Assembly: GCA_001314865.1 (NCBI GenBank)
Contig: LJZR01000036.1
Coordinates: forward strand, 1-39,164
From: Phormidesmis priestleyi Ana
GTDB lineage: Bacteria; Cyanobacteriota; Cyanobacteriia; Phormidesmidales; Phormidesmidaceae
DNA: 39,164 nt
Reading direction: 5' to 3'
Shown here: positions 6,347 to 23,725 of the stretch, one piece after another
How positions within the stretch are numbered: position 1 is the first letter of the stretch
How the letters are laid out: each line of letters begins with the position of its first letter
Made by a program: the position numbers and the translations under genes
The notes under the pieces: model-generated
Seen by the model: the letters and a program-made list of their open reading frames with translations, nothing else
Database searches by the model: none
Told to the model about the DNA's origin: nothing

Positions 6347-7570
6347 ATGACTTCAACCGCATCGCCTTTTGACTTAGACATTGATCTAAACCGGGTTTAC
6401 TTAGAAATTGATCCGGCTTTGCGGGCTGCGGCTTGGTCACAGAGCCAGCACTTGGCCACCCCTGCTAGTCGCTGGCGCGCTTATCTCAATCAGATCAGTT
6501 TACAAACCGTACAGCCTTGGCTAACGGAGGCGATCGCAAGTCGGGCCATGCCGATGTTGGCCATGCCGCTACTGCCTACGATTTGGGAGTGGGTAGACGG
6601 TGTGGGCGTTGATCTGACGTTTGAAAAGGGCAGTGAACGCTGGGTTCTGTTGCCGACAGAAGCAATCGATGAAGACGAGCTACGGGTGCCCCAAGAATGG
6701 ATCGATATTCCGAGTTGGGTCGGTGATTATTACCTCCAGGTGCGGGTAAATGTGGATGACGGTTGGGTAAAGATTGCCGGACTGGCCACCCACCGGGCGC
6801 TGAAAATAAATGGATATTTAGACAGCAGCGATCGCACCTATAGCCTTCCAGCTAGCGACCTCATCACCGATATCAACCTGATTAGCCTCTCCCAAACGCT
6901 CCTTCCTGCCGCCTCAAAGCGAGCCAGCCTCGCTGAGAGTCCGCTATCCCTAGCGCGCAGCATGGCGCTCTCCCAAGCCCAACAACTCATCACTCGCCTC
7001 AGCAATCCTGAGCTGCTCAACCCTCGCCTTGCTGTTGATTTTGCCAGCTGGAGCGCTCTGATGGCCCATGGGGGCTGGCGCAGACAAATGACCGAACAAC
7101 GCTGGGGCCGTCCGGCTGCCTTCTCGGTGGGGCAATGGCTACAGTCCGGCATTACCCAAATCGCCGCACAAATCGGCTGGCAATCTGTGAGTTTTCAGCC
7201 AGCGGCAGAGGGTGCTCGCGGAGAAGAGGCCAGTATGGCCACGACGGGATTTTTGCGAACAGTCGAAATTTTAGAAGAGAACCGAATAGAAAACTATGTT
7301 CTGCAAATTTCACTGCTGGAAGGAGATATGCCTAACGCATGGCGCTTTGAGCTGCGTAAGCTCAATGGATTGGTGGCGCAGGGCGTGGTGCTGCGGCTGC
7401 TCAGCGAAGATTTGCAACCCTTTGAAAACAATGAGGTCACGGCCAGAGAACCTGTAGACCTGTTGTATGTTGATGTTGCCTTGGCACCTGGAGAGGGAAT
7501 TGTTTGGGCGATTGAACCTGTGCCCGCTCAGTATGAGCCTGAAATCTTGAGATTTGATCCGCTTTCTTGA
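6347..7570 (+). CDS. DUF1822 family protein
   Basis: A 407-residue protein of the cyanobacterial DUF1822 family, whose function is unknown. The family signature is the central block LLNPRLAVDFASWSALMAHG followed by GWRRQMTEQRWG. The N-terminal part (LYLEIDPALRAAAWSQ-like, then WRAYLNQISLQTVQPWL) also fits. The C-terminal half contains a predicted beta-rich segment ending in an acidic, Pro-rich tail. There is no signal peptide and no membrane segment, so it should be cytoplasmic. It follows the sigma factor on the same strand and probably shares its transcript. A regulatory or sensory role next to the sigma factor is inference only. The ATG at 6347 gives a start that fits the family. Confidence 0.85.
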   Translation: MTSTASPFDLDIDLNRVYLEIDPALRAAAWSQSQHLATPASRWRAYLNQISLQTVQPWLTEAIASRAMPMLAMPLLPTIWEWVDGVGVDLTFEKGSERWVLLPTEAIDEDELRVPQEWIDIPSWVGDYYLQVRVNVDDGWVKIAGLATHRALKINGYLDSSDRTYSLPASDLITDINLISLSQTLLPAASKRASLAESPLSLARSMALSQAQQLITRLSNPELLNPRLAVDFASWSALMAHGGWRRQMTEQRWGRPAAFSVGQWLQSGITQIAAQIGWQSVSFQPAAEGARGEEASMATTGFLRTVEILEENRIENYVLQISLLEGDMPNAWRFELRKLNGLVAQGVVLRLLSEDLQPFENNEVTAREPVDLLYVDVALAPGEGIVWAIEPVPAQYEPEILRFDPLS

Positions 7571-7577: not shown

Positions 7578-7622
7578 TGCATAGTTTGCAAATGGCCACC
7601 CTAATACAACAGCAAAGAGGAG
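7578..7622 (+). promoter_or_regulatory. Weak match to the shared upstream element
   Basis: TGCATA at 7578-7583 is followed after 15 bases by CCCTAA at 7599-7604 and then a GAGG-containing tract. The TGCATA-15-CCCTAA spacing equals that in front of the CHAT gene (10300-10341), but the AGTC box is missing and the site lies about 240 bp from the FecR start. It is a possible regulon member, listed as tentative. Confidence 0.25.
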
Positions 7623-7766
7623 TGTTGAAATCGTGCGTCCTTGTTATTTCTTGTAACGGTGTGCAAACAAGTACCCGAATGGGTAATGGTGAGCATGGAG
7701 AATAAATTCTAGGGTAAAGATAAGGGTGCATTTGGATACTCGCAAAGCAGCCCATCCCGATAGCGT

Positions 7767-7846
7767 CAGTTGGTCTTCATTTCAGTTGGGCTCCCTTCCA
7801 GTTGGTCTCCATTTCAGTTGGTCTCCATTCCAGTTGGTCTCCATTG
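7767..7846. repeat. 16-bp x 5 tandem repeat directly upstream of the FecR gene
   Basis: Five head-to-tail copies of cagttggtctccattt (units start at 7767, 7783, 7799, 7815 and 7831). The second copy is the most diverged. The array ends where the ribosome site gagga (7846-7850) of the FecR gene begins, so it occupies the 5' untranslated region or promoter. The unit length is not a multiple of three, so it is not coding. Confidence 0.95.
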
Positions 7847-7858
7847 AGGATAAAACAC

Positions 7859-8974
7859 ATGCAGCAGCAAAAACAGATCTCTAGTCCTGTCGGGATGTCT
7901 AGCCTATGGATGGGTAGCTGTATGGCTTTTCTTTGGGCTTTGTTCTGGACGCCCTCGGCATTGGCCCAAGCGACGGCACTAACTCGTGCAGAAGTTTACC
8001 AGCTGCAAAATACGGTTGAACTGCTGCTTAGAAACCAGTCGCCTCGCCCAGCTCAACTACAGGATATTATGGCGCCCCGTGATGCCGTGCGTACCGGGAG
8101 CCGCTCTCGGGCAGAACTGCTTTTTAACGAAGGCTCTTTGGCTTGGCTAGGGTCTAATTCTACTTTTCGATTTTTGCCAGGGCTGCGGCGCTACCAGCTA
8201 CCCGATGGCAGCTTGCGATCTGAGGCGGTTATTCAGCTGCGGAGCGGTGTTTTGGCAATGGCCATACCGCCAGCCGCCGCAGGTGGCGACAATGTAGATA
8301 CCACAATTGAAACGCCAGAAGGGGCCATTCAAATTATTTCAGATGCTGAACGCTTAGGAGGTGGCTCAGACGGTTTGCCCGACAACAGTATTGCCTTGTT
8401 CGTGACCTCTGATCCAACCAATGGTCAGGTTCAGCTCATTGCGCTGACCAATATCGGGTTTCAGTTCTCGGGTATGTCTACCCCTATTTTGTTGCAAGGG
8501 GGACAAACAGTGACTATTTTGGATGGGCAGCTAGGCCCGATTCAAAATTTTGACCTGAGGCGGTTTTATCAAACCTCTCAGTTAGCTGCTGGGCTAGGAC
8601 CAGCGCCAGAAGAAGTATGGGCGCGATCGCCAGAATCTGTGCGGTCAACGCTACAGGCAGTCCGGCTGGATACTTTGGCGGCGATCGCCCGTCAAGATGC
8701 CCGCCAAGCACAAACCCCAAACACTGCCCCCGAAGGGCTCTGTACGCTAGATGCTCGCGGTGGTGATACAACGCTTTCGGCCAACTGTATTGGCACTGGG
8801 GCCGATAATCCGCTGACCGACTTTGAAGACCAGCGAGAAGACGGCTTTATCCCCGAAGACCGTCCACAAGAGCCACCACCAAACGATAACGTTATCCCTG
8901 GAGGGCAGCAGCCTGACCCGATTAATCAAGATCCGATTGACCAAAATCCTGGCAACAACAACCCACCTGGATAG
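7859..8974 (+). CDS. Exported FecR-domain protein
   Basis: A 371-residue protein with a signal peptide (hydrophobic SLWMGSCMAFLWALFWTP, cleavage likely after SALAQ) and a FecR domain. The domain is recognised by TRAEVYQLQNTVELLL, the PRDAVRTGSRSRAELLFNEG block and WLGSNSTFRFLPG. Classical FecR proteins are inner-membrane anti-sigma regulators with a cytoplasmic head. This one begins with an export signal and has no cytoplasmic domain, so it is more likely a periplasmic or surface protein. The C-terminus is low-complexity, rich in Pro, Asn, Asp and Gln. The start is the ATG at 7859, supported by gagga eight bases upstream. An in-frame TTG at 7802 lies inside the 16-bp repeat array and is unlikely. 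It sits between the DUF1822 gene and a beta-barrel gene. Confidence 0.8.
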   Translation: MQQQKQISSPVGMSSLWMGSCMAFLWALFWTPSALAQATALTRAEVYQLQNTVELLLRNQSPRPAQLQDIMAPRDAVRTGSRSRAELLFNEGSLAWLGSNSTFRFLPGLRRYQLPDGSLRSEAVIQLRSGVLAMAIPPAAAGGDNVDTTIETPEGAIQIISDAERLGGGSDGLPDNSIALFVTSDPTNGQVQLIALTNIGFQFSGMSTPILLQGGQTVTILDGQLGPIQNFDLRRFYQTSQLAAGLGPAPEEVWARSPESVRSTLQAVRLDTLAAIARQDARQAQTPNTAPEGLCTLDARGGDTTLSANCIGTGADNPLTDFEDQREDGFIPEDRPQEPPPNDNVIPGGQQPDPINQDPIDQNPGNNNPPG

Positions 8975-9019: not shown

Positions 9020-9054
9020 TTTTGAATCTTATTTGATTTTTTTTGAATCTTATT
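9020..9054. repeat. 14-bp direct repeat upstream of the beta-barrel gene
   Basis: ttttgaatcttatt occurs at 9020-9033 and again at 9041-9054, a 21-bp period, just upstream of the ATG at 9071. It is AT-rich and could contribute to a promoter, but no clear -35/-10 pair is visible. Confidence 0.7.
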
Positions 9055-9070
9055 GGTAGAGAGTAAAGCA

Positions 9071-10222
9071 ATGCGATCGCCCTATGCTGCTATTGGTTTG
9101 ACTATTGCAAGTACAACGGGTGTGATTGCGATCGCCTGTATGGGCCAAGTCGCCGTAGCGATGCCTGCATTATCTGGGTTGTACCTCAGCCAGACGCCCT
9201 CATCAGCCCCTGATCTGTTGTTAGATAATGAGGGATCGTCACCTAATCTCAATACAAATCTCAATACAAATCTCAATACAGAAGCCCCTGACAGCGAGGA
9301 CTCAGATCCGGAAAACACAGAAGATGAAAATTCAGAAGGTGAAAATGCAGAAGATGAAAATGCAGCGCCTGATGGTTTGGATATTGAAGACGATGATTTC
9401 CTCAACCCCGATCCGATGGAGGCCGCGTTAGATCCGTCGGAAGCGGCGGCTGAAGTAGGAGAGATTAAAATTATTCCTGAAGTACAAACGCCAGCGGCGG
9501 CTGTTCGCCGTCAGCACAATGGCCAGCTCTTGTTGCGCTCATCGGCTTTTACCAGTTCTAACATTACAGGCAGTACGCTTGAGCAAACTGGCGATATTGT
9601 GTTTGTTAATCAAGCAACGATACTGGTGACGCCAAAGCTAGGCCCAGAGACTCGCCTGATTGCAACAGCAGGAGGCGGGCTCACCCGTTTTGCTGAGGAA
9701 GGCGATCGCAATAATTACAATTCTCTGGACTTTAGTTTGGGGGTACAGCAGCGTTTGACCCATAGAATGTATGGCCAGCTCGATTGGGTTAATGCTCAGC
9801 TGTATAGCGCGGTAAGTGGCGATCGCACCTTGTCTGACAACAGTGCTCGCCTCCTGATTGGCCGACAAGATCAGCTCGATAAAAAAGTGCGACTAGACAC
9901 CGCCTATGAACTGCGTGTTCGCTTTACAAATCCTAGCGATCGCAGTCGTATTGAGAACAGTCTATCGACGAACTTACGCTACGATGTATCGCCCGATTGG
10001 CAGGCGTCTTTTGGCTATCGCTTAGCTTTAAATGATTACACTCAAAATGGCCGATTTGACACCACCCATCGCCTGCAAGCGGCAACCACCTTCCTGCCCA
10101 CCCAAGATACCTTTGTGACAGGATTTGCCGCATATCTGTTTGGTAATTCTTCCGCTGCCAATGTTGACTTAGAGAATTTTTCCTTTGGGCTGGGTGTAGG
10201 GGTAAACTTACCGCTGTTTTAA
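9071..10222 (+). CDS. Probable outer-membrane beta-barrel protein
   Basis: A 383-residue exported protein. The N-terminus (MRSPYAAIGLTIASTTGVIA) is a signal peptide with a likely cut near VAVA or MPAL. A strongly acidic low-complexity linker of Asp, Glu and Asn follows (about 55-130), including three copies of a 12-bp repeat. The C-terminal 230 residues alternate polar and hydrophobic residues in successive strands, for example LRYDVSPDWQASFGYRLALN. The protein ends FGLGVGVNLPLF, with the terminal Phe typical of barrels inserted by the BAM machinery. I cannot name the family. The ATG at 9071 has a gagag ribosome site; the in-frame TTG at 9053 is less likely. It lies 96 bp after the FecR gene on the same strand, so a joint envelope role is plausible. 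Confidence 0.65.
   Translation: MRSPYAAIGLTIASTTGVIAIACMGQVAVAMPALSGLYLSQTPSSAPDLLLDNEGSSPNLNTNLNTNLNTEAPDSEDSDPENTEDENSEGENAEDENAAPDGLDIEDDDFLNPDPMEAALDPSEAAAEVGEIKIIPEVQTPAAAVRRQHNGQLLLRSSAFTSSNITGSTLEQTGDIVFVNQATILVTPKLGPETRLIATAGGGLTRFAEEGDRNNYNSLDFSLGVQQRLTHRMYGQLDWVNAQLYSAVSGDRTLSDNSARLLIGRQDQLDKKVRLDTAYELRVRFTNPSDRSRIENSLSTNLRYDVSPDWQASFGYRLALNDYTQNGRFDTTHRLQAATTFLPTQDTFVTGFAAYLFGNSSAANVDLENFSFGLGVGVNLPLF
9245..9280 (+). repeat. 12-bp x 3 tandem repeat in the beta-barrel gene
   Basis: Three identical copies of aatctcaataca encode an NLNT-type repeat at the start of the acidic linker. A looser repeat of gaagatgaaaatgca follows (about 9318-9364). Confidence 0.95.
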
Positions 10223-10299: not shown

Positions 10300-10341
10300 T
10301 GCATAACACTTCAGAGTCAACCCTAAGTATTTACCGAGGGG
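10300..10341 (+). promoter_or_regulatory. Shared upstream element, copy in front of the CHAT gene
   Basis: The element reads TGCATA, nine bases, AGTC, a CCTAAGTA block, then GAGGGG, 42 bp in all. It ends 40 bp before the CHAT ATG. The same boxes with the same overall spacing occur upstream of the gene at 18795-19460 and, slightly shortened, upstream of 17155-17880. A promoter or operator for a common regulator is the likely reading. Inverted repeats (TTCAGAGTC at 10310-10318 with GACTCTGAA at 10361-10369, and GAGGG/CCCTC at 10336-10350) overlap it. Confidence 0.55.
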
Positions 10342-10381
10342 TTCTCCCTCCTGCAAAAAGGACTCTGAAGGAGAGACTGCT

Positions 10382-11656
10382 ATGGGCACGCCACATGCCA
10401 TCAAGACACGTCATCTACAAATTGTTGAATTAACTAAACTGACCGAACTCTTTGCTGCGCAGTCTTTATCATCGCCTTTTCCGACGCCTTGTTCGCCACT
10501 AACGAGCCACTATCCAACCGCATGGGGTGATCAACATAGCGCCAGACACAAGCGTGCTGTACTTAAGCTTGGCCTTCCTGAGTCAAAAGGGATTCCGGTG
10601 AGCCTTCAGATTGGCAATGAGGGGGCGCTACCTCAGCTAGAAACGACAGGCTGGTTGCCCCTAGCCACTGAGCTACTCGTCACTCAAGCGGCTTGGCAAC
10701 AGACTTACTGTCAAAACTATCACCAAGCTTTTCGCATTCATGTGTCTGAGGTACAAATCACGAATGTTAGCTATCAAGAAGAGACTGAACAGTGTCGTCA
10801 AGTGCATCAACGCTTGACGCAGCAGATCAACAGCTGGCTAAATTCAGAACTCTTTCGACCCGTGCGAGAAACTTTACTTTCTCAGCTACATCCGACAGAC
10901 ATGATTCGGTTAGTGTTCCAAACGGACGATGTACAGATTCGCGCGCTGCCGCTGCATGTATGGGACTGGTTTGATCGCTATCCGCAAGCAGAGCTGGTGC
11001 TGAGCCAATCAACTTATTGTCAATGGCCTCAACCAACGGCTCCTCAAGCGGCTAAGCGTCAGGCGCCTGAGGCTGCGAAGGTAAAGATTCTAGCTGTGCT
11101 AGGTGATAGTCAGGGATTAGATTTGCAGCGCGATCTTGACCTGCTGCGCGCTTTGCCGGATGTTGCGCTAACTTGTTTGGTCGAACCTGAGCGATCGCAG
11201 CTGAATGACGCCCTTTGGGAACAGTCTTGGGATATTCTCTTTTTTGCAGGGCACAGCCGCTGCACCGATCAAACGCAACAGCTTCGCCTCAATGCTAACG
11301 AAAGTCTGTCGCTGCATGACTTAAAACACGGCTTAAGAAAAGCCACAGTGCGAGGCCTGAAGCTAGCGATTTTCAATGCTTGCGACGGTCTAAAACTACT
11401 CAAATCTCTCAGTCAAGAACTTGTTTTGCCAACCACTATTTTGATGCGCCATCCCGTGCCGGATAAAGTGGCTCAAGCCTTCCTCAAATATTTTCTCAAT
11501 TCTTTTTCTCAAGGAATTCCGCTGCATCTAGCCGTCCGGGAAGCCAGAGAACAACTCGAAGGGCTAGAGTCCCAATTTCCCTTTGCTAGCTGGCTTCCTG
11601 TGCTTTGGCAAAATCCATCGGCGCAGCCTATCACTTGGACTCATTTAAAGTCCTAA
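10382..11656 (+). CDS. CHAT-domain (caspase-like) protease
   Basis: A 424-residue protein with a C-terminal CHAT domain, the caspase-related clan CD peptidase fold. The catalytic pair is visible: His291 in ILFFAGHS and Cys334 in LAIFNACDG. The closing REAREQLEG and FPFASWLPVLWQNP segments are typical of CHAT C-termini. The N-terminal half (about 1-215) is not assigned; it contains no TPR array or membrane segment, so this is not the usual TPR-CHAT form. The fold of the N-terminal part is unknown and may be the recognition or regulatory module. The ATG at 10382 has AAGGAG eight bases upstream. The stop codon overlaps by four bases the stop of the caspase-STAND-WD40 gene coming the other way, and both encode caspase-fold peptidases. 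A role in a protease-based stress or defence response is inference. Confidence 0.85.
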   Translation: MGTPHAIKTRHLQIVELTKLTELFAAQSLSSPFPTPCSPLTSHYPTAWGDQHSARHKRAVLKLGLPESKGIPVSLQIGNEGALPQLETTGWLPLATELLVTQAAWQQTYCQNYHQAFRIHVSEVQITNVSYQEETEQCRQVHQRLTQQINSWLNSELFRPVRETLLSQLHPTDMIRLVFQTDDVQIRALPLHVWDWFDRYPQAELVLSQSTYCQWPQPTAPQAAKRQAPEAAKVKILAVLGDSQGLDLQRDLDLLRALPDVALTCLVEPERSQLNDALWEQSWDILFFAGHSRCTDQTQQLRLNANESLSLHDLKHGLRKATVRGLKLAIFNACDGLKLLKSLSQELVLPTTILMRHPVPDKVAQAFLKYFLNSFSQGIPLHLAVREAREQLEGLESQFPFASWLPVLWQNPSAQPITWTHLKS

Positions 11657-14600
11657 AATTCACAGAGATCTTTCTTCAAAATAGTTGGATTGTGGGCCAG
11701 GTAATCGTTGACTTGATCGCAGGCTGCGGTTAGCAACTGGGCGAGATCCCAATTCCACAGGTTCACTTCCAAATCTTCTCCACTGCTGATGAACAGATGA
11801 CTATCGTGACTCACAGCCAAACTCTCTATTCCTTGATGATGGCCCTGCAAGCTGGTTAGCCGTTCACCCGTCTGCCAGTTCCAAAGCATGATGGTTTGAT
11901 CCGCGCTACCAGAAATGAGTATGTTTTTTGCTGATGTAGGAGGATTAGACACGAGGGCTAATGTAGTAACCCCGTTTTGATGTCCGGTTAAAGTGCGTAT
12001 GAGTGCGCCGTTTCTCACCCGCCAAATTTTGATGGTGTTATCCCAAGCTGATGAAATGAGATATTTGCCGTCTGCGCTAAAAGTCAGGGCTGCGATCGCT
12101 TCTCCATGCCCCTTTAATGTCTGCACTAGCGCCCCATCTTCATTCCAAATTTTCACCATTTTGTCATAGCTCCCTGACGCCATCCAATTGTTCTGCGGGT
12201 GCCACGCGATCGCCGTTATGCCCTCTTCATGAGTCTTCCAACTCTTTTGTTCTTTTTCCTTCACGAGGTGAAATAAACGCAGCAGTCCATCCTCTCCGCC
12301 CGAGAGTAGCCATTGTCCATTCGGGCTAAAGGCCACTGTGGTCATTGCCTTTGATGACCCGGTGACAATACTTGAAAACTTTCCTAAATCGATGCCTCCT
12401 TGCGTAATATCCCACAGCCTAATCTCTCCGGCCTCATGGGCAGAAGCTAATTGCGGTTTGCTGGGGTTAAAGGCTATTTTAAAAATATGATTGTCTCCAG
12501 CAAATAGTGTTGCTCGTCGCGATCCTAAAGCGTCATTCTCTTTTTTCCATAACTCAATACTGCCCTCCCAAGTGGCTCCTGCAAGTAAGCTGCTATCGGG
12601 GCTAAATGTGATGCTATAGAGCTTTTGCTCGGAGGTGGGTGCAGGCAACTGCCACAACCGAACGGTTTTGTCTCGGCTAGCAGAAGCGATTTGGGTGCCA
12701 GAAGGGTGCCATGCAGCGCTCAAAACTTCACCTCCATGCCCTTGAAAGGTCACTGGTGGGGTGTCTTCTGCTATGGGCCAGATGCGTGCAGTGCGATCGC
12801 CCCCCACCGACAGCAGAGACTTGCCGTCAGGGCTAAAGGCCACCGAATTCACCTGATTGTCATGTTCACCAATAATCTCGCCCGTAATTTTGCCTGTACT
12901 TTTGCCTGTACTTTTATCAGTACCTGGGGCTGTGCGATCGCTCAAGTGCCATAGCTTAATCATGCGATCGCTACCGCCAGAGGCAAGTCCCGCCTCGCCA
13001 AACGCCACCGAACTAACCCTTCCCTGATGGGCTACTGCCTCCCATACTAAGTCTCCGCTTTCGGTATCCCACACCTTAATTTTGCCATCTTCTCCACCCG
13101 ATGCCAGCTGCTGACCATCTGGATGCCAGTTCACTGTATTCACCCATCCCTGATGGCCACTCATAAGGGTTTTCAACAATGTTCCTTCTGCCGTCCAAAT
13201 CGAGATGCGACCATCTCGGCTGCTCGTTGCTAACCGCTCCCCATCTGGCGCATAAGCTACCGAGGTGACCCAATCGGAATGAGCCGATATGACCTGCTGT
13301 GGAACGACCCGCTGTGAAATATTCTGTTGTAAACTGACCGGCGATGAATTAACCTGCGATGAAGTATCCGGCTTAATTGCCCATAACGAGACCTGTCCGT
13401 TGGAGTGAGCGGTGGCAATTGTTTCACCCTCTGGGTGAAACGCGATACTCGTCACCCGGCTACGCACTGCTGCATCTCCCGCACCATCTATCTCACCATC
13501 GACTGGCACCGTCTGCAACAACTCACCATTGGCGTACCATACCTTAAGCGTGTCATCATCACTACCCGACGCTATCCACTCGCCATCAGCGCTGTAAGCC
13601 ACCGCATTGACCTGCTCACTGTGCCCCTCTAGGCGGTTGCGTTCTGCCCCTAAGCTCACACTCTGTTGCAACGTCCCGGTCGTCTGCGCCCATAAGGCAT
13701 TCGCCGCCCGCCCAAAAAATCTGAGTCCTCGAATATCTTGTAACTGCTGACCAGCTTCGATTGCCGTCATGGTCGCTTCTAAAGACTGATGAGTGGACAG
13801 TTGAGAAGTTGAGAGTGCATTCAAAGTTTCCACTTCTCGTAGCCGCGCCTGCTGTCGCTGAAAATAGGCAATCCCCCCTAAACCAATCGCCCCGATTGCC
13901 AGCACACTAATCGCGGCGATCGCTCGTTGTGCCCGCCGCAATCGCTTTAACGCCTGTGATTGTTCTTTTTCCCGTGCGTTCATTCCGGCTTCTATAAACC
14001 GCTGCACCTCTCCGGGTAGTTCATCGGTGTAGCTGATATACAGCTCTACTGCGGCATCTAACGGAATGCCTCGCAAGAGAAAATCAGACTGCTCGTTATT
14101 TTGCTTCCAGGCGATCGCAGCCTGCTCCACCTGCCGTTGCTTTCGCAATCGAACCCGATTCTCTTCTAGCCACCACCGCAATGTAGACCAATGGCGAATG
14201 AGAATTTCATGCGCTACCTCCACGGTTACAGGCGAAGAAGAGTCCGATGAAGAATGCGTGATAGAAGATGATTGTGCTGCTGCCGTTTCACCTTTTACCG
14301 TTTCACCTGCTGCTGTTTCCTCTTCAGTGCGTCCTCGACTACGCCCCCCATCATTGATCCTTTCACCTATCATTGCGCCTTCATGCAGGTCACTCTCTCC
14401 ACCGCCTATGACCACCAGCTTTGCGGCCACCAGTGCCTGCAATGTCCGCTCTACCCTTGCTGCTGGGTACTTCTTCACAACCAAATCCGTTTTTGCCACT
14501 CGCCGCCGCGTATCTTCTGTACCTTCACCCAGCTGAGTCAAATTCAGAAAAATCCAGCGAGCACAGTCTTGTTCTTCCCAGCTAAGCGCGTTGTATACTG

Positions 14601-17043
14601 TCTGTGCCTTTCGCTCTAGTGCGCCTTTAAGTCCGCCCACCTGTTCTTGATACACCTGCAAAGCCAGCTGTCCTGGCTCCCGCTTTTCCCAAATTTGTTC
14701 CAACACAAATTCCAACAACGGTAAATCACCCACCCCTTGGTTAAGATCTTGCAGTAGCACAGTAACCAGCTCTGGTTCAACGGCCAAACCTACTTTCTCA
14801 GCCGGACGTAGAATAATCTCTCGATAGGCCGCTTCTGAGAGGACGGGCGGAACTAAAATGTTGGACTGCTGGAGTTGGGGCGCGAGTTCAGGTAATTCTA
14901 GGGCAGTAGCCATGAAGTCAGTGCGCAAAGTGAGAACCAGTTTGAAACGATCGCTGGCGTGAGCGATCGCGCCCATGATTAAGGCCAAGAATGCCTGTCT
15001 CTCGACCTCACTTGACAGCGTAAACAGCTCCTCAAACTGATCGACCACCAGCACCACCATCGGCTCTGGGCGCGTTCTGAGCCACCGGACAAAGCCCTCT
15101 GGCCCCAGATGTAACAGTCCCTCAATCTGGAGCTGTTTCTGTATTTTGTCGGCTGTTTTGTCTTCACTGCTCACATCCACCAAGCGCTGTGCCAGTACCT
15201 GAATAGGATGCACCCCAGGGCGAAAGCTCTGCACCCACCAGCGATCGCTCCCCGGAATTTGTTTACCCTGTTTCAGCTGAGCCATCAGCCCCGCCTGCAC
15301 AACTGACGACTTACCACTCCCAGAAGCACCCACAACCGCCAAAAAGGACTGTTGGTTGATAGCCTGTAATAGCTGCTGTACAAGCTGCGATCGCCCAAAG
15401 AAAAAAGCCGCATCCGCTTCATCAAACGCCCGCAACCCCCTATACGGACACAGCCCAATATCTACCGCTACCGCCTCGGCTTGGGCAGTACTCTTCCCCG
15501 GCAGCACTTCTATCACCTCCTTCCCCGTCAGCCAAAAATAGGGGGTAATGGCGCTCAAGGCTAGCCGCCCCTGTAACTGCGTAATCCATCCCGCTGCGGG
15601 CATACCTTCCTGTAGCTCCGCCGCTGTCAAAGACTCTAAGAGTATCTGAGAGAAAATATGAGGAGATTTTCCGGTTGAAGCCGCCGCCAGTAAGCACTGA
15701 GCGCGGTCAGTATCAGCGCGGAGATCTTCTACCCAGGCATCTAAATTCTCGGCTTCAGGGAAATCTAAAACAACAATTTGCTGAGAAATTGCGGCGTCGC
15801 GCAGTACCTGGCGCAACCATGAACGACTCACCTGTGTACTCTCAGGCAGCACCAAAACCGCTTCCCCAGAGGGCAGTGTTTTCAGCTCTCCGCGCAAATA
15901 CAACAGAACAGTACCCGGTTCTACGCCGCTATTTGGCCCCTTTGCGAATCCCAAACACTGCCGTATGCTGGCGCGCACATTTGCCCATTTACCTCCGGGT
16001 TGAGGCCAATAGCTCACCTCAAAATTGCCACTTTGGCGCAAGACCTTACTCAACGCCAGGCTTGTCCCTGTATCTCTGAGCCCATCGACTAAAATTGCCC
16101 GACGTGGATATGCTCTGGCTGCGGCCTTTGCCTTCAGCACCAGCACACTTTCACCCACCCCTTCTACAATTCGCTTAGGGGTTTGTAGGGGATATTCTGT
16201 TTGCAGATGAAAGTCACCGCGACTGCGCTTTTGCTGATTGATAACCCGCAGTTGTTGATTGGTTTTGTCAATATAGCGCAGCGTTTGATAGTACACATAG
16301 CGATATAAGCTATCTGCCGAAATCGCGCCTTGGGCATTGGCGGCTTCTCCGCGCAGCCCCTGCATCAGGTAGTAGGTAAATACCCCATGACCTAGCTGGG
16401 GAAATTCCCAAGAACGCTGGTCTTGATCGCAGGAGAGAAGTGCGTAGAACCCGCTACTTTGAGCAGCCTGCCGTCGCAACACATCTACGGTGGTTCCCCG
16501 TAGGGTCATGTCACCACTGTGACAGGCATCTAGCCATACAAGCTGCTGTCGGGCAGCGCTACGATTCAATGCCCTAAGGAGAAACTGAAGGCTCAGACCT
16601 GTTTCTAATAAATTCTCTTTTTGAGTATCGCTGAAGCAAAGAACAGCTTGCGGAGCCTCAGAAACTGCTTCAGAGACTGCTGCTGTCGTTTGAATACCAT
16701 GCCCCGAAAAGTAGAACAAAATCGTATCTTGGGGCTGAGCCTTGGTGACGATCTGTTCAAGACTCGCTTGGACGCTCGCCAATGTTGGTGGCTGCAAAGC
16801 GCCATCATAATGCACCCGAATTTTTTGATAGGAAAATGCCGGAGTGGCGTCGTTAAGAGCTTCGCTAAGGCCCTGACAATCGACTGCTGAGTAACGTAGG
16901 TCGGGCAGGCTAGTGTCTTGGTAGTGGTTTACGCCCACCAATAGTAGCCAGAGCACAGAATCGGCTGAGGGATTGTGGGAAGAACGCTCTGTTGGGTTTT
17001 GGGTTGGAGAAGTAGGCTGGCTAGTGCCGATACTGACAGGCAT
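11653..17043 (-). CDS. Caspase - STAND NTPase - WD40 protein
   Basis: An 1796-residue multidomain protein. Residues about 30-270 form a caspase (C14) domain with His115 in FYFSGHG and Cys174 in WLDACHSGD. A STAND NTPase (about 530-1000) starts CPYRGLRAFDEADAAFFFGR, has the Walker A motif GASGSGKSS (Lys578) and VLVVDQFEELF as Walker B, and ends with the VAHEILIRHW block. One membrane segment (AIAAISVLAIGAIGLGGIAY) lies near 1040-1060. The C-terminus (about 1135-1790) holds 14 WD40 repeats, enough for two seven-bladed propellers. The family is thought to sense a ligand through the repeats, oligomerise through the NTPase and activate the caspase. A Glu/Ser/Thr-rich insert of roughly 60 residues splits the end of the STAND region, and a TGKSTGK repeat sits between propeller blades. 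The ATG at 17043 fits the family start. The gene converges with the CHAT gene. Confidence 0.93.
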   Translation of the reverse strand: MPVSIGTSQPTSPTQNPTERSSHNPSADSVLWLLLVGVNHYQDTSLPDLRYSAVDCQGLSEALNDATPAFSYQKIRVHYDGALQPPTLASVQASLEQIVTKAQPQDTILFYFSGHGIQTTAAVSEAVSEAPQAVLCFSDTQKENLLETGLSLQFLLRALNRSAARQQLVWLDACHSGDMTLRGTTVDVLRRQAAQSSGFYALLSCDQDQRSWEFPQLGHGVFTYYLMQGLRGEAANAQGAISADSLYRYVYYQTLRYIDKTNQQLRVINQQKRSRGDFHLQTEYPLQTPKRIVEGVGESVLVLKAKAAARAYPRRAILVDGLRDTGTSLALSKVLRQSGNFEVSYWPQPGGKWANVRASIRQCLGFAKGPNSGVEPGTVLLYLRGELKTLPSGEAVLVLPESTQVSRSWLRQVLRDAAISQQIVVLDFPEAENLDAWVEDLRADTDRAQCLLAAASTGKSPHIFSQILLESLTAAELQEGMPAAGWITQLQGRLALSAITPYFWLTGKEVIEVLPGKSTAQAEAVAVDIGLCPYRGLRAFDEADAAFFFGRSQLVQQLLQAINQQSFLAVVGASGSGKSSVVQAGLMAQLKQGKQIPGSDRWWVQSFRPGVHPIQVLAQRLVDVSSEDKTADKIQKQLQIEGLLHLGPEGFVRWLRTRPEPMVVLVVDQFEELFTLSSEVERQAFLALIMGAIAHASDRFKLVLTLRTDFMATALELPELAPQLQQSNILVPPVLSEAAYREIILRPAEKVGLAVEPELVTVLLQDLNQGVGDLPLLEFVLEQIWEKREPGQLALQVYQEQVGGLKGALERKAQTVYNALSWEEQDCARWIFLNLTQLGEGTEDTRRRVAKTDLVVKKYPAARVERTLQALVAAKLVVIGGGESDLHEGAMIGERINDGGRSRGRTEEETAAGETVKGETAAAQSSSITHSSSDSSSPVTVEVAHEILIRHWSTLRWWLEENRVRLRKQRQVEQAAIAWKQNNEQSDFLLRGIPLDAAVELYISYTDELPGEVQRFIEAGMNAREKEQSQALKRLRRAQRAIAAISVLAIGAIGLGGIAYFQRQQARLREVETLNALSTSQLSTHQSLEATMTAIEAGQQLQDIRGLRFFGRAANALWAQTTGTLQQSVSLGAERNRLEGHSEQVNAVAYSADGEWIASGSDDDTLKVWYANGELLQTVPVDGEIDGAGDAAVRSRVTSIAFHPEGETIATAHSNGQVSLWAIKPDTSSQVNSSPVSLQQNISQRVVPQQVISAHSDWVTSVAYAPDGERLATSSRDGRISIWTAEGTLLKTLMSGHQGWVNTVNWHPDGQQLASGGEDGKIKVWDTESGDLVWEAVAHQGRVSSVAFGEAGLASGGSDRMIKLWHLSDRTAPGTDKSTGKSTGKITGEIIGEHDNQVNSVAFSPDGKSLLSVGGDRTARIWPIAEDTPPVTFQGHGGEVLSAAWHPSGTQIASASRDKTVRLWQLPAPTSEQKLYSITFSPDSSLLAGATWEGSIELWKKENDALGSRRATLFAGDNHIFKIAFNPSKPQLASAHEAGEIRLWDITQGGIDLGKFSSIVTGSSKAMTTVAFSPNGQWLLSGGEDGLLRLFHLVKEKEQKSWKTHEEGITAIAWHPQNNWMASGSYDKMVKIWNEDGALVQTLKGHGEAIAALTFSADGKYLISSAWDNTIKIWRVRNGALIRTLTGHQNGVTTLALVSNPPTSAKNILISGSADQTIMLWNWQTGERLTSLQGHHQGIESLAVSHDSHLFISSGEDLEVNLWNWDLAQLLTAACDQVNDYLAHNPTILKKDLCEF

Positions 17044-17154
17044 GAGTTCAAGACACCTAAGCGATCGCTGTTATTTTACGAGCAAGAGTGGGCTGTAGGA
17101 GGCACCCTCATGGGTATGGGTGAAAACCTTTACCTAAATTTAGGCGGCAGGCTG

Positions 17155-17880
17155 CTAACGACCGAGTGTAATGGATGTTTCGAGTGCCAGCACATAAACG
17201 CTCCCCTGGGGAATTTGAACGATCCGTGAACTTTCGTCCTGGCGACCCGCGACCATGCCGATTAAGTTACCCAGCATACCGCCTCGATCAAAAGCATCAG
17301 GATCGCCACCATTGAGGAAGCCAAAACCACTGGCGGCCATTCGCCCGATAGTTGCGCCATTGTCGGCAGCACGGTCATTGGCACGGACATGGGTGATAGT
17401 AGTTCCTGGAATAATGGGGCTCTTGGCTTGAATAGGGACAATTTGCCCGCCGATCACAATGGACTGAGCAATGACTCTGGCACCGCCGTCTTCTGGCTGA
17501 ATGATAACGCTCACAGGGCTGTTTTCAGGCACAATTACATTCCCTTGCGCATCTGTAATCGCTTGCGAAAGCGGTAGGGTGACAGGATAGGCACCTTCAT
17601 CGGCATCAATAGAAACCGGGGCCAAAAAGCTGACAATGACGCCTGTGCTTGCTGGAATGGTAACAGTTGTCGGCTGGGGCAATAGATTCGTTCTCGGTGC
17701 GATAGGTCTCTGTGAGGAAGTTAATGTGTCGATTGTGGGTTGTTCTACAGGTTCGGCAGTCGGTTGTTCGGCAATGGTTGAGACAGGTGTGATCTCGGCG
17801 GCAACGGGTGACATTTGCCCGCCGATGGTAGCTGCTGCTGAGAGTGCAATGACCAATTTTAAAAGCGTTGGAGTTTTCAT
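17155..17880 (-). CDS. Exported protein of unknown function
   Basis: A 241-residue protein with a clear signal peptide (KLVIALSAAATIGG, cut probably after VAA). A Thr/Pro-rich spacer is followed by a beta-rich domain with VIVPENSPVSVIIQP, IVIGGQIVPIQAKS and a Gly-rich GRMAASGFGFLNGGD segment. The closing QIPQGSVYVLALETSITL has the look of a TrbI/VirB10-like beta domain, but this similarity is weak and I do not assign the family. It is probably periplasmic. The ATG at 17880 has AAGGAG nine bases upstream (17890-17895 on the plus strand), and the shared upstream element lies at 17932-17972. It stands 111 bp from the start of the caspase-STAND-WD40 gene on the same strand and could be cotranscribed with it. 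Confidence 0.65.
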   Translation of the reverse strand: MKTPTLLKLVIALSAAATIGGQMSPVAAEITPVSTIAEQPTAEPVEQPTIDTLTSSQRPIAPRTNLLPQPTTVTIPASTGVIVSFLAPVSIDADEGAYPVTLPLSQAITDAQGNVIVPENSPVSVIIQPEDGGARVIAQSIVIGGQIVPIQAKSPIIPGTTITHVRANDRAADNGATIGRMAASGFGFLNGGDPDAFDRGGMLGNLIGMVAGRQDESSRIVQIPQGSVYVLALETSITLGR

Positions 17881-17931
17881 TTTTACCGGCTCCTTTTTAA
17901 GGATAAAGTGTGTAGCTTGAGGCGGTTGGTT

Positions 17932-17972
17932 GCCCTTACTCTTTTATAGGGACGGACTTAGATAGATATGCA
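17932..17972 (-). promoter_or_regulatory. Shared upstream element, copy in front of the exported-protein gene at 17155-17880
   Basis: Read on the minus strand: TGCATA, eight bases, AGTC, 19 bases containing CCCTATAAAAGAGT, then GGG. The AGTC-19-GGG spacing is identical to the copies at 10300-10341 and 19510-19551. The TGCATA end overlaps a perfect 8-bp inverted repeat, AGATAGAT (17960-17967) with ATCTATCT (17979-17986). It lies about 50 bp upstream of the ATG. Confidence 0.55.
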
Positions 17973-18014
17973 CCAGGCATCTATCTGGTATGTACCTGTT
18001 ATGAAAAATTTCTT

Positions 18015-18701
18015 TTAAGGCGTGTCTTGGCGATCGCGCAAAAGCCAGTGCCAACCCGATCCCGGACGAACGATCCAAGGGATATTTCCCTCGGTTATTT
18101 GGTTCTCATACCAGTCCTGGTATTGCTCTAGGTGTTGATCCAGATATTGATCGGGGTATTGGTCGGGGTATTGATCGGTATTAGATGGTTGACTTGAATG
18201 CGGATAGGGCAGCGGCAACGGCGGGTGCGAAAGACTTGAAGGTGGCTCGACCTGTAGCCGAATATCATTGCACTGTCCTTGGATTTCAATAATGAGCGAG
18301 CGGCTGCCAGTGCGATCGCGCAAAATTTCACGAATGCTAGAACGGCTCTGGGCTGAATGCTGCTGCTGGTGTTCCCAGCGCCTGCTTTGCCCATCGGCGT
18401 TTTCAAAAAAGTCTTCAGATTCATAGCGATTTTCATGTTCATACCGGGTCAGATGATCGCAGCGAACAATAATTCTCGGCGAGGAAAAACTACGAGATGA
18501 TGATATATCAGGCGCAGTGAATTGCGTTCCATTCAACAATAGTAATTCACGGACAATCTCGGCGTTTTCATGCTGTGTTTTAGATAGGGTTTCTCTCGCT
18601 TGAGCCTGAAAAGAGAATAGAGGCCACAGTATCAGTGCTGTACCGCAGGCAAAAAATAGTCTGACATTTACCAGTTTGACATTCATCAGTTTGACATCCA
18701 T
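18015..18701 (-). CDS. Exported protein of unknown function with a Tyr/Gln-rich repeat tail
   Basis: A 228-residue protein, not recognised. A hydrophobic stretch (LFFACGTALILWPLFSF) ending QAQARE is a signal peptide. The mature part is polar and contains two cysteines (IIVRCDHL and IQGQCNDIRL) that could form a disulfide. A tail holds repeats of DQYP type (about 18121-18180, 12-bp period) and a final WIVRPGSGWHWLLRD. The extreme N-terminus is itself a 15-bp repeat: two copies of atggatgtcaaactg-like sequence and a third lacking the ATG, so the true start could be the ATG at 18701 or the one at 18686. It follows the gene at 18795-19460 after 93 bp that hold a strong hairpin, so the two may share a transcript. 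Confidence 0.6.
   Translation of the reverse strand: MDVKLMNVKLVNVRLFFACGTALILWPLFSFQAQARETLSKTQHENAEIVRELLLLNGTQFTAPDISSSRSFSSPRIIVRCDHLTRYEHENRYESEDFFENADGQSRRWEHQQQHSAQSRSSIREILRDRTGSRSLIIEIQGQCNDIRLQVEPPSSLSHPPLPLPYPHSSQPSNTDQYPDQYPDQYLDQHLEQYQDWYENQITEGNIPWIVRPGSGWHWLLRDRQDTP
18657..18701 (-). repeat. 15-bp x 3 repeat spanning the start codon of the gene at 18015-18701
   Basis: On the minus strand the units read ATGGATGTCAAACTG, ATGAATGTCAAACTG and GTAAATGTCAGACTA. The first two each supply an in-frame ATG. The repeat lengthens the signal peptide n-region without shifting the frame. Confidence 0.9.
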
Positions 18702-18726
18702 GACAAGAAATTCCGCAATAGGAGAG

Positions 18727-18760
18727 ACAGCTGCTGGTGACGAATCGCACCAACAGCTGT
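18727..18760 (-). other. Intercistronic hairpin
   Basis: ACAGCTGCTGGTG (18727-18739) pairs with CACCAACAGCTGT (18748-18760) over an 8-base loop. As minus-strand RNA all 13 pairs form, one of them a G-U pair. It lies between the genes at 18795-19460 and 18015-18701, with no U-tract after it. It may act as an mRNA-processing or stability element, or as a weak attenuator, rather than a standard terminator. Confidence 0.6.
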
Positions 18761-18794
18761 AAGCAGATGTTAAGCAATCGGTTGAACACCCGCC

Positions 18795-19460
18795 TTAGCG
18801 CTCTAGGAGACTGTCAACCTGTTCGCCACGACGGCCAGAGCGAATGCGGTAGCGCTCAGTTAGGTTGTCTTCATAGTTCATGTCTCGGGCAGCCGCAGCT
18901 TCTACGAAGGCGTCGCAGTTTTGACCCACTTCTACCGTAGAGGACTCAAATGTGTTGGCTGTAGACTCGCGGTTGTTATGGTTTTGAGAATTGCTATTAC
19001 TGCTGCGATCGCTTCTTTGCCCACTGCCGCTAACGCCAATCCCAAGGATGCTGACACCACCGCCGCCGCCGCCGCTAGATGCACTGGAAGAAGTATTGCG
19101 AGAGCTAGATGAGCTGCTATTACTGGATTGCAAGCTACTAGCAACTGTGTTGTTTCCTAATCCCACATCACTACAGAGGGCTCGCGGGTCTTCTACGAGG
19201 AGGTCTTGGCTTACCCAAGAGTCATGGTCGCCCAATCCTTGTACCTCGCTGTTGCCGACATTTTCAGATTGGTTAGCCTCAGGAGTCGTTTCAGCCGTAC
19301 CCACTGTACCGGCCCCCACTGTACCAGGCGTAATCAAGGTGCCAGGAGTAGCAAAAATGCCAGGGGAAACAGTATCAAAGGGACCAGCAAATGCAGGTAA
19401 TGACGTGAAAAGAAGACCTGTCGTTGCCAAGAGAGAGCTAGAGAGTTTGATGACGTTCAT
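18795..19460 (-). CDS. Exported Ser/Gly-rich protein of unknown function
   Basis: A 221-residue protein with a signal peptide (SSSLLATTGLLFTSLPAFA, cut before GPFD). A region rich in Gly, Thr and Pro (TPGTLITPGTVGAGTVGT) is followed by a segment with DPRALCSDVGLGNN, a Ser/Gly run of about 40 residues and a Asn/Ser/Arg stretch. The C-terminal part, VGQNCDAFVEAAAARDMNYE then ERYRIRSGRRGEQVDSLLER, looks folded. Two cysteines could pair. No sorting signal or membrane anchor is seen. The ATG at 19460 has AGGAAAG eight bases upstream, and the shared upstream element lies 49 bp before it. It is the first gene of a probable pair with 18015-18701. Function unknown. Confidence 0.65.
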   Translation of the reverse strand: MNVIKLSSSLLATTGLLFTSLPAFAGPFDTVSPGIFATPGTLITPGTVGAGTVGTAETTPEANQSENVGNSEVQGLGDHDSWVSQDLLVEDPRALCSDVGLGNNTVASSLQSSNSSSSSSRNTSSSASSGGGGGGVSILGIGVSGSGQRSDRSSNSNSQNHNNRESTANTFESSTVEVGQNCDAFVEAAAARDMNYEDNLTERYRIRSGRRGEQVDSLLER

Positions 19461-19783
19461 GAGTTGACTTTCCTAATCTTTACAAGGTTGTGTGTTTCAA
19501 AGAGGTTATCCCCTCCACTCTTTACTTAGGACGACTTGGAACAGGTATGCAGGTTGAGCACATTTTTTTGAAATCCGAAAAATTTTCATGCTCGACAGCA
19601 TAGACACTTCCCATTCGTAAGAATTAAGACGGATAGAGGTGTTCCTCTGCTACATCGCTTGAGATAGGATAAAGTTCTGAAGGATATGGCGTGGTTCCCA
19701 CGTATTCAAGGAAAAAGGCAAGCCTACGCCAATCAAAATCGTGAGTCACTTTTTCCCGTTACCACAATTGATGAAAATGCCCT
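19461..19783. other. Divergent intergenic region (323 bp)
   Basis: This lies between the minus-strand exported-protein gene and the plus-strand P450. It holds the 42-bp shared element (19510-19551) on the minus side. On the P450 side, GCATAGACACTTC (19598-19610) recalls the start of the CHAT element but lacks its later boxes. No RNA gene or further ORF is supported. Confidence 0.5.
19510..19551 (-). promoter_or_regulatory. Shared upstream element, copy in front of the exported-protein gene at 18795-19460
   Basis: On the minus strand: TGCATA, nine bases, AGTC, GT, CCTAAGTA, seven bases, GAGGGG. At 42 bp it has the same length as the CHAT copy. The GAGGGG end lies inside a short inverted repeat (AAAGAG ... 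CTCTTT). Confidence 0.55.
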
Positions 19784-21438: not shown

Positions 21439-22662
21439 TTAATTTTGCGATATCGTGTGATTCAATGCTGATAAGAGGGTAGGTATCTGAGTTTCGTAAC
21501 AAAATACTTCCTGCCCTGCTCTGTAGGCACTTTGTCTCACTTTCTGAAGTTTACTGCGATGATGACCGTATTGATTAATTGCAGCAGCTAATTCAGAAGG
21601 ACTATTGCATGCAATTAGTGTACCTACATCCGGCATTTGGTTCATAATTTCTCGCTGTCCGGCGGTATCAGATGCAATTACGGCAAGGCCTGCTTGCATG
21701 TACTGAAACAGTTTATTGGTGGCGGTGTAATATCGGCTTTCGCACTCAGACATTTCCAGTGCTAATCCAATGTCATATTCGGCAATTCGTAAAGGCAACT
21801 CGGCATTGCTCACTGCATCGTGAATATTCACACGAGATCGCCATTCCGTTGGAATCATAGGCTCCATCCACGCTTGGCTGCTGGGTGGATAATTCCCTCT
21901 AAGATGAATCTCAACTGAATCTTTGAGGTAGGGGAGAGCCGCAAAGAGCGTTTCTAGCCCTCGGCCCGGCCCAATTGTTTGAGAATACCAATGCAACTTA
22001 AGCGGCTGTGACAGTTCTAATAATTTTGGTGCTACCCCGTCAGCGCGAGGAAATACATTGTAAATAACTTGGGGAGAGTTGGCTTCATAAGTCTTTGCCA
22101 GGGCATTAGCCATCACTTGCGATGTCGTCAGCTTAAACGTGCAACGCTGCATTAGATATTTCTCTAACTGCTGGATTTTATCTATAGGACGGGTTTTAAT
22201 AGCACTAGGCAACAAATCTCTAGAGAACCAATCCTCGAAGTCAACCCCAACAGCATAGCCTTTTTGAATCAGTTGTTTCCCAACCCACAACCCCGCTTCT
22301 GAATGCACAATAGTCAGATCCGCGCGGATGTGTTGGGCTTTGCGTAGTAAGGCTTTAGCGCCATATCCCAATAAAGCAGGTGAAAAAATGCCGCAGTGCT
22401 GAAACCCTTCCTTTGCTAAGCGGTGCTGCAAACGTACCGACAAACGGGTTAAACTAGGCTGACTAGGTCGAAAATCTAGCGCAATGTCGAACGAATAGGA
22501 TTGTTGCCCAGACAGTTTGCGATCGCGCATGGCCAAGGCATCATCAAACCAGACTCCACAGACTGTTACATCATGGCCCGCCGAGGCAAATGCGGCAGCC
22601 TCTTTTTGAGGTCGAGGGGCTGTACAAAGATGCCCCCCAATTAAGATCAAAATCTTTGCCAT
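21439..22662 (-). CDS. Glycosyltransferase, family 4-like (GT-B)
   Basis: A 407-residue glycosyltransferase of the GT-B fold. It starts MAKILILIGGHLCTAPRPQK followed by a Rossmann-like donor of DVTVCGVWFDD type. The C-terminal nucleotide-sugar half contains KLHWYSQTIGPGRGLETLFAAL, IHLRGNYPPSS and the terminal YYTATNKLFQYMQAGLAVIASD, where the acidic E-x7-E pattern of GT4 is partly replaced. Donor and acceptor are unknown. It is the last gene of the minus-strand polysaccharide set, 79 bp after the family 2 enzyme. Role: addition of a sugar to the repeat unit in the cytoplasm. Confidence 0.8.
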   Translation of the reverse strand: MAKILILIGGHLCTAPRPQKEAAAFASAGHDVTVCGVWFDDALAMRDRKLSGQQSYSFDIALDFRPSQPSLTRLSVRLQHRLAKEGFQHCGIFSPALLGYGAKALLRKAQHIRADLTIVHSEAGLWVGKQLIQKGYAVGVDFEDWFSRDLLPSAIKTRPIDKIQQLEKYLMQRCTFKLTTSQVMANALAKTYEANSPQVIYNVFPRADGVAPKLLELSQPLKLHWYSQTIGPGRGLETLFAALPYLKDSVEIHLRGNYPPSSQAWMEPMIPTEWRSRVNIHDAVSNAELPLRIAEYDIGLALEMSECESRYYTATNKLFQYMQAGLAVIASDTAGQREIMNQMPDVGTLIACNSPSELAAAINQYGHHRSKLQKVRQSAYRAGQEVFCYETQIPTLLSALNHTISQN

Positions 22663-22741
22663 AATAGTTCTGTCGTAAAACCTGATTAAATAGGTTTCTA
22701 GCTTAAAATATTCAGGTTTGGGTTATTCAGGATTTAGCTAT

Positions 22742-23725
22742 TTAACTTCTGGCTATTCGGGTCTGAGACAATAAGTGCTGTTGATTCCGAAAGTAATTGC
22801 GCAGGCGGCTAGCCTGTTTCCAACCCAAAACCTGAGATACTTTGTTGTACCAAGGGCTTCCTTTCGGTTGAAGGGTCGCACCACCAAACTGTTCTACTTT
22901 TAACACAGCCTGCGCTTGCAGATCGGGCACGGCCGGGTAAGCCTCATAGATAAACCGCTGAAAGACATTGGCACAAACTTGTTTTACCCGATGGCTATCT
23001 TCCGCAGCAAGCAAATGACTGGTTCCTTTGCTCAATGACAAAAAGGCTGATTTCCACGCAGTAGGGTTTTTTTGGCCGCTTAAGCTACTATCTAACCCCG
23101 ACCGATAGTAAGTGCGTGCCGCCTTGCAAAAGACAATCCCTTGGCTCGCCAAAATCACCCGTGAGAAGTAATCGAAATCATTGATCAGCGATAGGCGAGT
23201 ATCCCACGGCCCGGCTTTCTCAACAATATCCCGAGGTAGTAACCAAGCAGCCCCATGCATCATCAAATGATTTTCCCAAGCGCAAAGCAGCCAGTCTACA
23301 GGTGAAAAATCAGCCCATAGCGCTTGTTCTTTAAAGGTTGCCTCTTCAGGTGAGCGATAAAACCTTGCCCATGAAGCACTTGTTATATAGCCAGCAGGCT
23401 GACGTTTCAAGAGATTCAACTGATGCTCAATCTTATCTGGAGCTAGCAAATCATCAGCATCTAGGTATTGAATAAAATCACCCTGTGCCACTTTCAAACA
23501 ATGATTCGAAGCAGCACATTGCCCCTGATTTTTCTGATGGATCACAATGACTTGAGGTGACTCGTATTGCTTGGCAACGGCTAAGGTTTCATCTTGTGAG
23601 CCGTCATCTACAACGATAATCTCAATATTTTTCCAAGTTTGGGCCAAAACGGAATCGAGAGTTTCAGCCAACCAAGGTTCTGCATTAAAGGCAGCAACGA
23701 CAACAGATACAAGAGGTTTTTTCAT
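22742..23725 (-). CDS. Glycosyltransferase family 2
   Basis: A 327-residue GT-A enzyme. The N-terminal motif VSVVVAAFNAEPWLAETLDS leads to IIVVDDGSQDET (nucleotide binding) and FIQYLDADDLLAPDKIE, whose DAD triad would bind the metal and UDP or dTDP sugar. The middle carries YRSGLDSSLSGQK-type acceptor-loop sequence. There is no membrane segment, so it should act at the cytoplasmic face of the membrane. The start is the ATG at 23725; an in-frame TTG nine bases further upstream adds only three residues and has no ribosome site. It is part of the minus-strand polysaccharide set. Confidence 0.9.
   Translation of the reverse strand: MKKPLVSVVVAAFNAEPWLAETLDSVLAQTWKNIEIIVVDDGSQDETLAVAKQYESPQVIVIHQKNQGQCAASNHCLKVAQGDFIQYLDADDLLAPDKIEHQLNLLKRQPAGYITSASWARFYRSPEEATFKEQALWADFSPVDWLLCAWENHLMMHGAAWLLPRDIVEKAGPWDTRLSLINDFDYFSRVILASQGIVFCKAARTYYRSGLDSSLSGQKNPTAWKSAFLSLSKGTSHLLAAEDSHRVKQVCANVFQRFIYEAYPAVPDLQAQAVLKVEQFGGATLQPKGSPWYNKVSQVLGWKQASRLRNYFRNQQHLLSQTRIARS

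Follow-up and report, generated by a model that had tools for sequence, protein, structure and literature searches.

TGCATA-N16-CCTA, the putative promoter class of a DUF1822-associated sigma factor in Phormidesmis priestleyi Ana and other cyanobacteria

According to our analysis, a short DNA element that recurs before genes on both strands of a 39,164-nucleotide stretch of the Phormidesmis priestleyi Ana genome (hereafter, the window; one contig of the 5.93 Mb genome) is most likely a real promoter, used by the sigma factor encoded in the same stretch. That the sigma factor of gene 4939-6243 uses this element as its promoter class has, in our estimate, a probability of about 0.88. Judged from sequence comparison, the core is TGCATA(A)-N16-CCTA, a predicted two-box promoter that is smaller than the element originally described and in which AGTC and GGG are minor. 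In the proposed mechanism, sigma region 4 would recognize TGCATA(A) as the -35 box, and region 2 would recognize CCTA, which lies 16 bases further along, as the -10 box. The active sigma factor would then switch the island on from five sites, with the genes for DUF1822, for the FecR-domain protein and its neighbour, for the CHAT protein, for 17155-17880 together with the STAND-WD40 protein, and for 18795-19460 together with 18015-18701 as targets. In other cyanobacteria, it would also drive unlinked genes, often for exported proteins. The sigma factor would not be self-activated, whereas its partner DUF1822 would be made under sigma control. The features are collected in Table 1.

Table 1. Genes and core sites in the window, with the variant sites near the paralogous sigma gene of the same genome.
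Feature	Position	Strand	Remarks
Kinase-AAA-GAF protein	62-4690	-	
Sigma factor of the sigma-70 family (434 aa) that would read the element	4939-6243	+	Pfam region 4; fold match to sigma chains
Core site TGCATA-N16-CCTA	6110-6135	+	237 bp upstream of DUF1822, within the sigma gene's 3' end
DUF1822 protein, possible anti-sigma or cofactor	6347-7570	+	Pfam DUF1822; constant sigma neighbour
Core site TGCATA-N16-CCTA	7578-7603	+	Before the FecR-domain gene
FecR-domain protein, exported-looking	7802-8974, likely ATG 7859	+	Pfam
Exported-looking protein, family not assigned	9053-10222	+	
Core site TGCATA-N16-CCTA	10300-10325	+	82 bp before the CHAT gene
CHAT-domain protein	10382-11656	+	Pfam
nSTAND1 NTPase with WD40 repeats	11653-17043	-	
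Exported-looking protein	17155-17880	-	Homologues retain the site
Core site TGCATA-N16-CCTA	17947-17972	-	92 bp before 17155-17880
Exported-looking protein	18015-18701	-	
Exported-looking protein	18795-19460	-	L091 and L213 relatives likewise carry the site
Core site TGCATA-N15-CCTA	19527-19551	-	91 bp before 18795-19460
TGCATA-N15-CCGTA sites (locus L256, G000:C7:66000-85900)	C7:74912, 78220, 82923		Before ORFs, 89-222 bp

From the gene order, the gene at 9053-10222 is possibly co-transcribed with the FecR gene, and single transcripts possibly join the nSTAND1-WD40 gene to 17155-17880 and 18015-18701 to 18795-19460.

The window holds five core copies, in comparison to 0.17 expected from its dinucleotide shuffles, and the gap between TGCATA and CCTA is 16 bases in four of them and 15 in the 19551 site. 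The sequence-only reading had listed copies at 10300-10341 (+), 19551-19510 (-) and 17972-17932 (-); all three are present there, with TGCATA, then 9, 9 and 8 bases, AGTC, CCTA, and GGG 19 bases past AGTC, just as described. A three-block pattern fitted to the three copies themselves (TGCATA-N8-10-AGTC-N2-4-CCTA) never appeared when the window was dinucleotide-shuffled 200 times, and a genome-wide scan found it three times in 5.93 Mb, always in the window (reversed control 0). The fixed geometry that had been assigned to AGTC and GGG did not survive comparison with relatives, in which the fixed pair is TGCATA to CCTA; AGTC lies 7, 6 and 8 bases ahead of CCTA in the three copies. The 10300 and 19551 copies do share a length of 42 bp, but this is a coincidence, because two gaps differ between them. 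The GGG block corresponds merely to a weak purine-rich downstream stretch in the logo of relatives. AGTC and GGG were both rejected as core blocks, since relatives keep neither of them at a constant position. The 7578 copy, previously taken for a weaker version, is a full core copy (TGCATA and CCTA), though without AGTC and GGG, and the probable ATG of its gene follows at 281 bp, not at the 40-50 bp given earlier for the listed copies. The earlier list lacked the fifth copy, which falls in the last part of the sigma gene.

The distance between the two boxes is sharply defined among relatives. In 37 sigma loci of relatives and in the window, TGCATA-Nk-CCTA gave a single sharp peak at k = 16 (20 matches), with 0-2 matches at every other k from 3 to 40. 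We also used the best 80 of 401 sigma loci from named organisms (1.41 Mb), all of them cyanobacterial except for one Bacteroidota-type bin (L138), where a close relative of the sigma factor is assigned to a metagenome bin of Crocinitomicaceae, possibly through a binning error. Outside the sigma gene, these best 80 of 401 loci contained 56 matches at gap 16, in comparison to 0-9 at other gaps, and the TGCATAA version had 55 matches at gap 15 (other gaps 0-8). The 56 sites are not independent: 30 are homologous and lie on the opposite strand at the sigma start, in 30 loci, and the remaining 26 are placed elsewhere, in 22 loci. When 30 offsets before CCTA were screened and every 6-mer seen at least 12 times was scored, TGCATA exactly 16 bases before CCTA ranked first in the best 80 of 401 loci, with a count, copies inside sigma genes included, of 94 against 1.5 expected.

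A logo was drawn from the best 80 of 401 loci, the 37 loci of relatives and the window, where 63 sites were left after removing those in long ORFs and 32 after removing similar ones. It consists of TGCATAA and CCTA, with a C, four bases ahead of CCTA, that is conserved in part (22 of 32 sites), an A four bases past CCTA (26 of 32) and then weaker purines; AGTC is absent from these 32 sites of relatives. The element shows two boxes at a fixed spacing before genes, the layout of a sigma promoter class.

In 30 of the best 80 of 401 loci (L100, L103 and others), TGCATA of the divergent site overlaps the sigma start codon (locus position 10000-10005; TATGCA on the sigma strand). On the sigma strand itself, no TGCATA-N15-17-CCTA was found within 500 bp upstream of the sigma gene in the best 80 of 401 loci or in the window, so the sigma factor seems not to be self-activating, and autoregulation was rejected.

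The protein has the regions by which such boxes are recognized. Sigma region 4 (-35 recognition) exceeded the Pfam cut-off in the window protein and was matched in 34 of 34 aligned members (E up to 0.1). Region 2 (-10 recognition and core binding) was matched in 29 of the 34 under the same limit, with a best E of 1.1e-6; in the window sigma it reached E 0.05 only, below the Pfam cut-off, and the fold search supports its presence. Sigma region 4 was at the top of a profile search of solved structures with the window sigma. The AlphaFold model of this protein had a mean pLDDT of 78 and a pTM of 0.44, and all 50 fold matches listed were sigma chains. The best of them had E 1.6e-4, and at TM-scores near 0.2 the fold search supports the sigma family only.

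The layout TGCATA-N16-CCTA is that of ECF-type promoters in general; the promoter of the ECF-type SigW of B. subtilis, for example, is TGAAAC-N16-CGTA. The window system resembles these in its two short boxes, the 16-base gap, a gene nearby and a sigma gene beside a constant partner. It differs in having TGCATA(A) where the first box is usually of the AAC type, and in a sigma factor of 434 aa whose fold matches are sigma chains extending beyond regions 2 and 4. With so general a layout, the sites might instead be promoters of another alternative sigma factor common in cyanobacteria (SigG, SigF or SigJ type), an explanation that we consider very improbable, as it predicts an excess of sites in all genomes, and the excess tracks the close sigma clade instead.

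This was seen in 290 genomes of the class (completeness 90% or more), which were scored for TGCATAA-N15-CCTA with the reversed pattern as a control. The 38 genomes with a close sigma homologue (E < 1e-90) had 198 sites against 42 controls. Middle homologues (1e-90 to 1e-50; 41 genomes) gave 64 against 46, which is no clear CCTA excess for them as a class, and the 14 genomes with distant homologues only gave 12 against 9. The 197 genomes with no sigma homologue gave 198 against 147, a small excess even without the sigma factor. When the close-sigma label was permuted within families (six families with 146 genomes in all, among them 33 of the 38 positive ones), the observed excess was reached in 0 of 20,000 permutations. 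The signal is carried by families f15, f24, f26 and f32; f1 has two positives, and the one positive genome of f13 is without a clear excess. Eight genomes reached via sigma-bearing named loci gave 64 against 9, a set overlapping the 290 in at least one genome (G065, with the same places as G077). The element thus follows the presence of the sigma factor. In P. priestleyi Ana itself, TGCATA-N16-CCTA has 14 sites (reversed control 2), of which four cluster in the window (P 1.8e-6); the ten others, of which the ORF context only was looked at, may be chance. In G008 and G021, several near-identical sites, TGCATAAC[GT]TCCTATCTCGAACCCTA, are scattered and possibly represent a dispersed repeat instead of promoters.

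The same association with the close sigma factor is visible before homologues of 17155-17880, which were present in 77 of the 290 genomes; 30 loci were taken for the upstream check. In genomes with the close sigma factor, the site precedes the homologue in 16 of 18 cases and is missing in 2; the window is itself among the 18, so 15 of 17 are new. Fourteen of the 16 sites have the form TGCATA-N16-CCTA and two end in -CATA, and they lie 59-92 bp before the first ATG. In the remaining genomes, the site was found before 0 of 12 homologues, five of them clear (E < 1e-20; including G032, which has a middle sigma homologue) and seven weak. With the window included and relatedness ignored, Fisher's test gave 0.0006 against the five and 1e-6 against the twelve. 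The conservation upstream of orthologues on which the earlier proposal depended is thus seen for homologues of 17155-17880 in the close-sigma genomes examined, and the absence of the site in the 12 others is a further point against another common sigma factor. Relatives of 18795-19460 in L091 and L213 (L213 by eye) have the site 94 and 90 bp upstream, in comparison to 91 bp in the window. In Cylindrospermum NIES-4074, relatives of both 17155-17880 and 18795-19460 (L205, L213; by eye) have one site each; a distance of 1.3 kb separates the two sites, and the sigma locus is about 1.7 Mb away.

Two alternative sigma factors with described features offer a further comparison, limited to the available parts of the sources. 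The SigJ J-Box of Nostoc punctiforme is an extended -10 element, GGGaAtacT, with a weak -35 (PMC6495340). It is likewise the promoter class of an alternative cyanobacterial sigma factor, found through motif comparison (PMC6495340); its sequence differs, both boxes are strongly conserved in our element, and the extended -10 GGGaAtacT was not recognized when its consensus was compared with the logo by eye, which also argues against a SigJ-type promoter. SigG, found in nearly all cyanobacterial strains compared, is co-encoded with a proposed regulatory partner, SapG (PMC2758279), much as in the window, but the clade of the window sigma is not near-universal. The same 2009 review called promoter recognition by SigG, SigH and SigI unclear (PMC2758279).

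Co-occurrence with the sigma gene cannot separate the sigma factor from DUF1822, which is as constant a neighbour: a DUF1822 homologue stands next to the sigma gene on its strand in 74 of the best 80 of 401 loci. The element could therefore also be an operator bound by a co-encoded repressor or activator, e.g., DUF1822, with transcription by an ordinary sigma factor. We regard this as improbable, since a pair of unlike boxes, at a fixed distance of 16 bases and lacking a palindrome, is promoter-like. Moreover, searches by sequence against solved structures found no relative of DUF1822 and no match to a DNA-binding protein (weak ones at E 0.29 or worse). Feedback by DUF1822 as an anti-sigma factor is our guess.

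A further argument against an operator comes from the same genome, in which a paralogous sigma gene (G000:C7:65622) occurs with DUF1822 and CHAT genes. Near it, CCTA is changed to CCGTA while TGCATA stays. The genome has four TGCATA-N15-CCGTA sites (reversed control 2), three of which lie 9-17 kb downstream of the paralogue. This clustering has P 1.5e-7, but two of these sites, along with similar ones in relatives, had already guided the choice of the pattern. Within family f1 (40 genomes), the CCGTA form, counted with some copies inside sigma genes, occurs 44 times against 11 controls in the 10 genomes with the paralogue and 22 times against 10 in the 30 without it; the difference has p 0.0009, rising to 0.014 after removing one per genome. 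G069 (f4), outside this comparison, has the paralogue and gave 4 against 0. The paralogue-bearing genomes G018, G273 and similar ones showed no CCTA excess. A kept TGCATA and a changed second box are what would be expected of two diverged sigma factors, and we consider this suggestive. Spacing, gene-proximal position, co-occurrence, the 17155 homologues and the second box near the paralogue together lend strong support to the earlier proposal that the element is the recognition site of the local sigma factor; the repressor offered beside it appears unnecessary and fits less well. What that proposal stressed in the anatomy (AGTC, GGG and the 42 bp) is mostly not conserved.

The core copy within the sigma gene is widespread as well. 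In the best 80 of 401 loci, TGCATA-N16-CNTA occurs near the 3' end of 63 of 80 sigma genes, 38 of them with CCTA, and 17 have no embedded copy at the exact spacing. The copy encodes a peptide (LHI...DLL) that is conserved across the sigma family, and its distance to DUF1822 varies; it might thus be a mere by-product of the peptide with no promoter function. We find this unlikely, because the third bases are far more uniform than codon usage would make them, a constraint on synonymous codons among relatives. Codon 399 varies between leucine, valine and isoleucine, yet its third base is A in 79 of 81 sequences; the third base is C at codon 398 in 65 of 81 (24 expected) and G at codon 391 in 76 of 78. 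Another alignment, in which 3 of 80 genes found no place and some rows were misplaced, likewise pointed to synonymous constraint here. Among 375 columns, codons 399, 398, 391 and 397 rank 1, 7, 8 and 2 in third-base bias, i.e., four of the eight most biased, with values of 122-184 against a median of 12. Other columns are biased too, and columns 128 and 235 of the top eight favour GCG before ATC, in keeping with the HIP1 octamer. The codons of the embedded site look chosen for DNA, and this constraint argues that DUF1822 is very likely served by a sigma-dependent promoter of its own within the sigma gene. A 15-bp tandem repeat (four units at 6135-6194, encoding NHSGL) directly follows the embedded promoter.

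The sites precede CHAT genes (window and L045), a gene for a caspase-domain protein (L106) and genes for many small proteins. Since our first rule for signal peptides was too lax (16 of 27 targets, background 410 of 1070), we adopted a strict version of this rule of our own. By that version, a signal-peptide-like start is present in 17 local targets among the 29 distinct ones that have an ORF, in comparison to 202 of 1176 ORFs of the same loci (p 6e-7). Among 30 genome-wide sites examined of 64, 22 had an ORF, 16 of these signal-peptide-like, and 8 had none. Eight of nine representative targets were without a Pfam family, and chance may account for some of the targets listed, for instance an NRPS-like protein in L116. 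On the best reading of these predictions, the targets of the sigma factor are rich in exported proteins and conflict-type genes.

Similar gene neighbourhoods have been described, and we compare them here with the available parts of the publications. ECF sigma and DUF1822 genes occur beside EACC2-caspase genes, for which transcriptional control by the sigma factor was proposed (PMC8195603); sigma, DUF1822 and conflict-type proteins are neighbours in the window as well, and the available text describes neither a promoter, embedded or otherwise, nor target genes farther away. Metacaspase operons of other phyla include sigma factors (PMC3501461). A 2024 classification sorts cyanobacterial sigma factors by domains (PMC11119718). 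By our own placement, the window sigma, with region 4 only above the Pfam threshold, is like its families J.1/K.1, for which the available text gives domains and no promoters (PMC11119718). In the open-licence literature, subscription papers and preprints lying outside the scope, we found no earlier report of the TGCATA element and no paper on an ECF sigma factor with a CHAT domain in cyanobacteria.

For a cyanobacterial sigma family, the element and its predicted targets amount to a promoter consensus and a list of targets that can be tested. They tie such a sigma factor to conflict-type and exported proteins, give a candidate promoter inside the sigma factor's own gene that is conserved by codon choice, and suggest two paralogous systems with different second boxes in one genome. 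As a tentative and rather doubtful extension, these might be self-contained sigma circuits, in which paralogues share TGCATA and are split by CCTA versus CGTA, and which switch on exported proteins and conflict proteins of CHAT, STAND and caspase type as a transcriptional arm of immunity or cell death. The end of the sigma coding sequence would double as the DUF1822 promoter in such a circuit, so that a cell with active sigma factor would also make its regulator.

An RNA element was rejected as a candidate, since the window had no Rfam match at gathering thresholds. A 16-bp tandem repeat with five units (7766-7845) lies between the 7578 site and the start of the FecR gene. Beyond 19460, the window continues with a P450 gene and then a polysaccharide cluster (21439-38966) with several sulfotransferases and glycosyltransferases and one exosortase.
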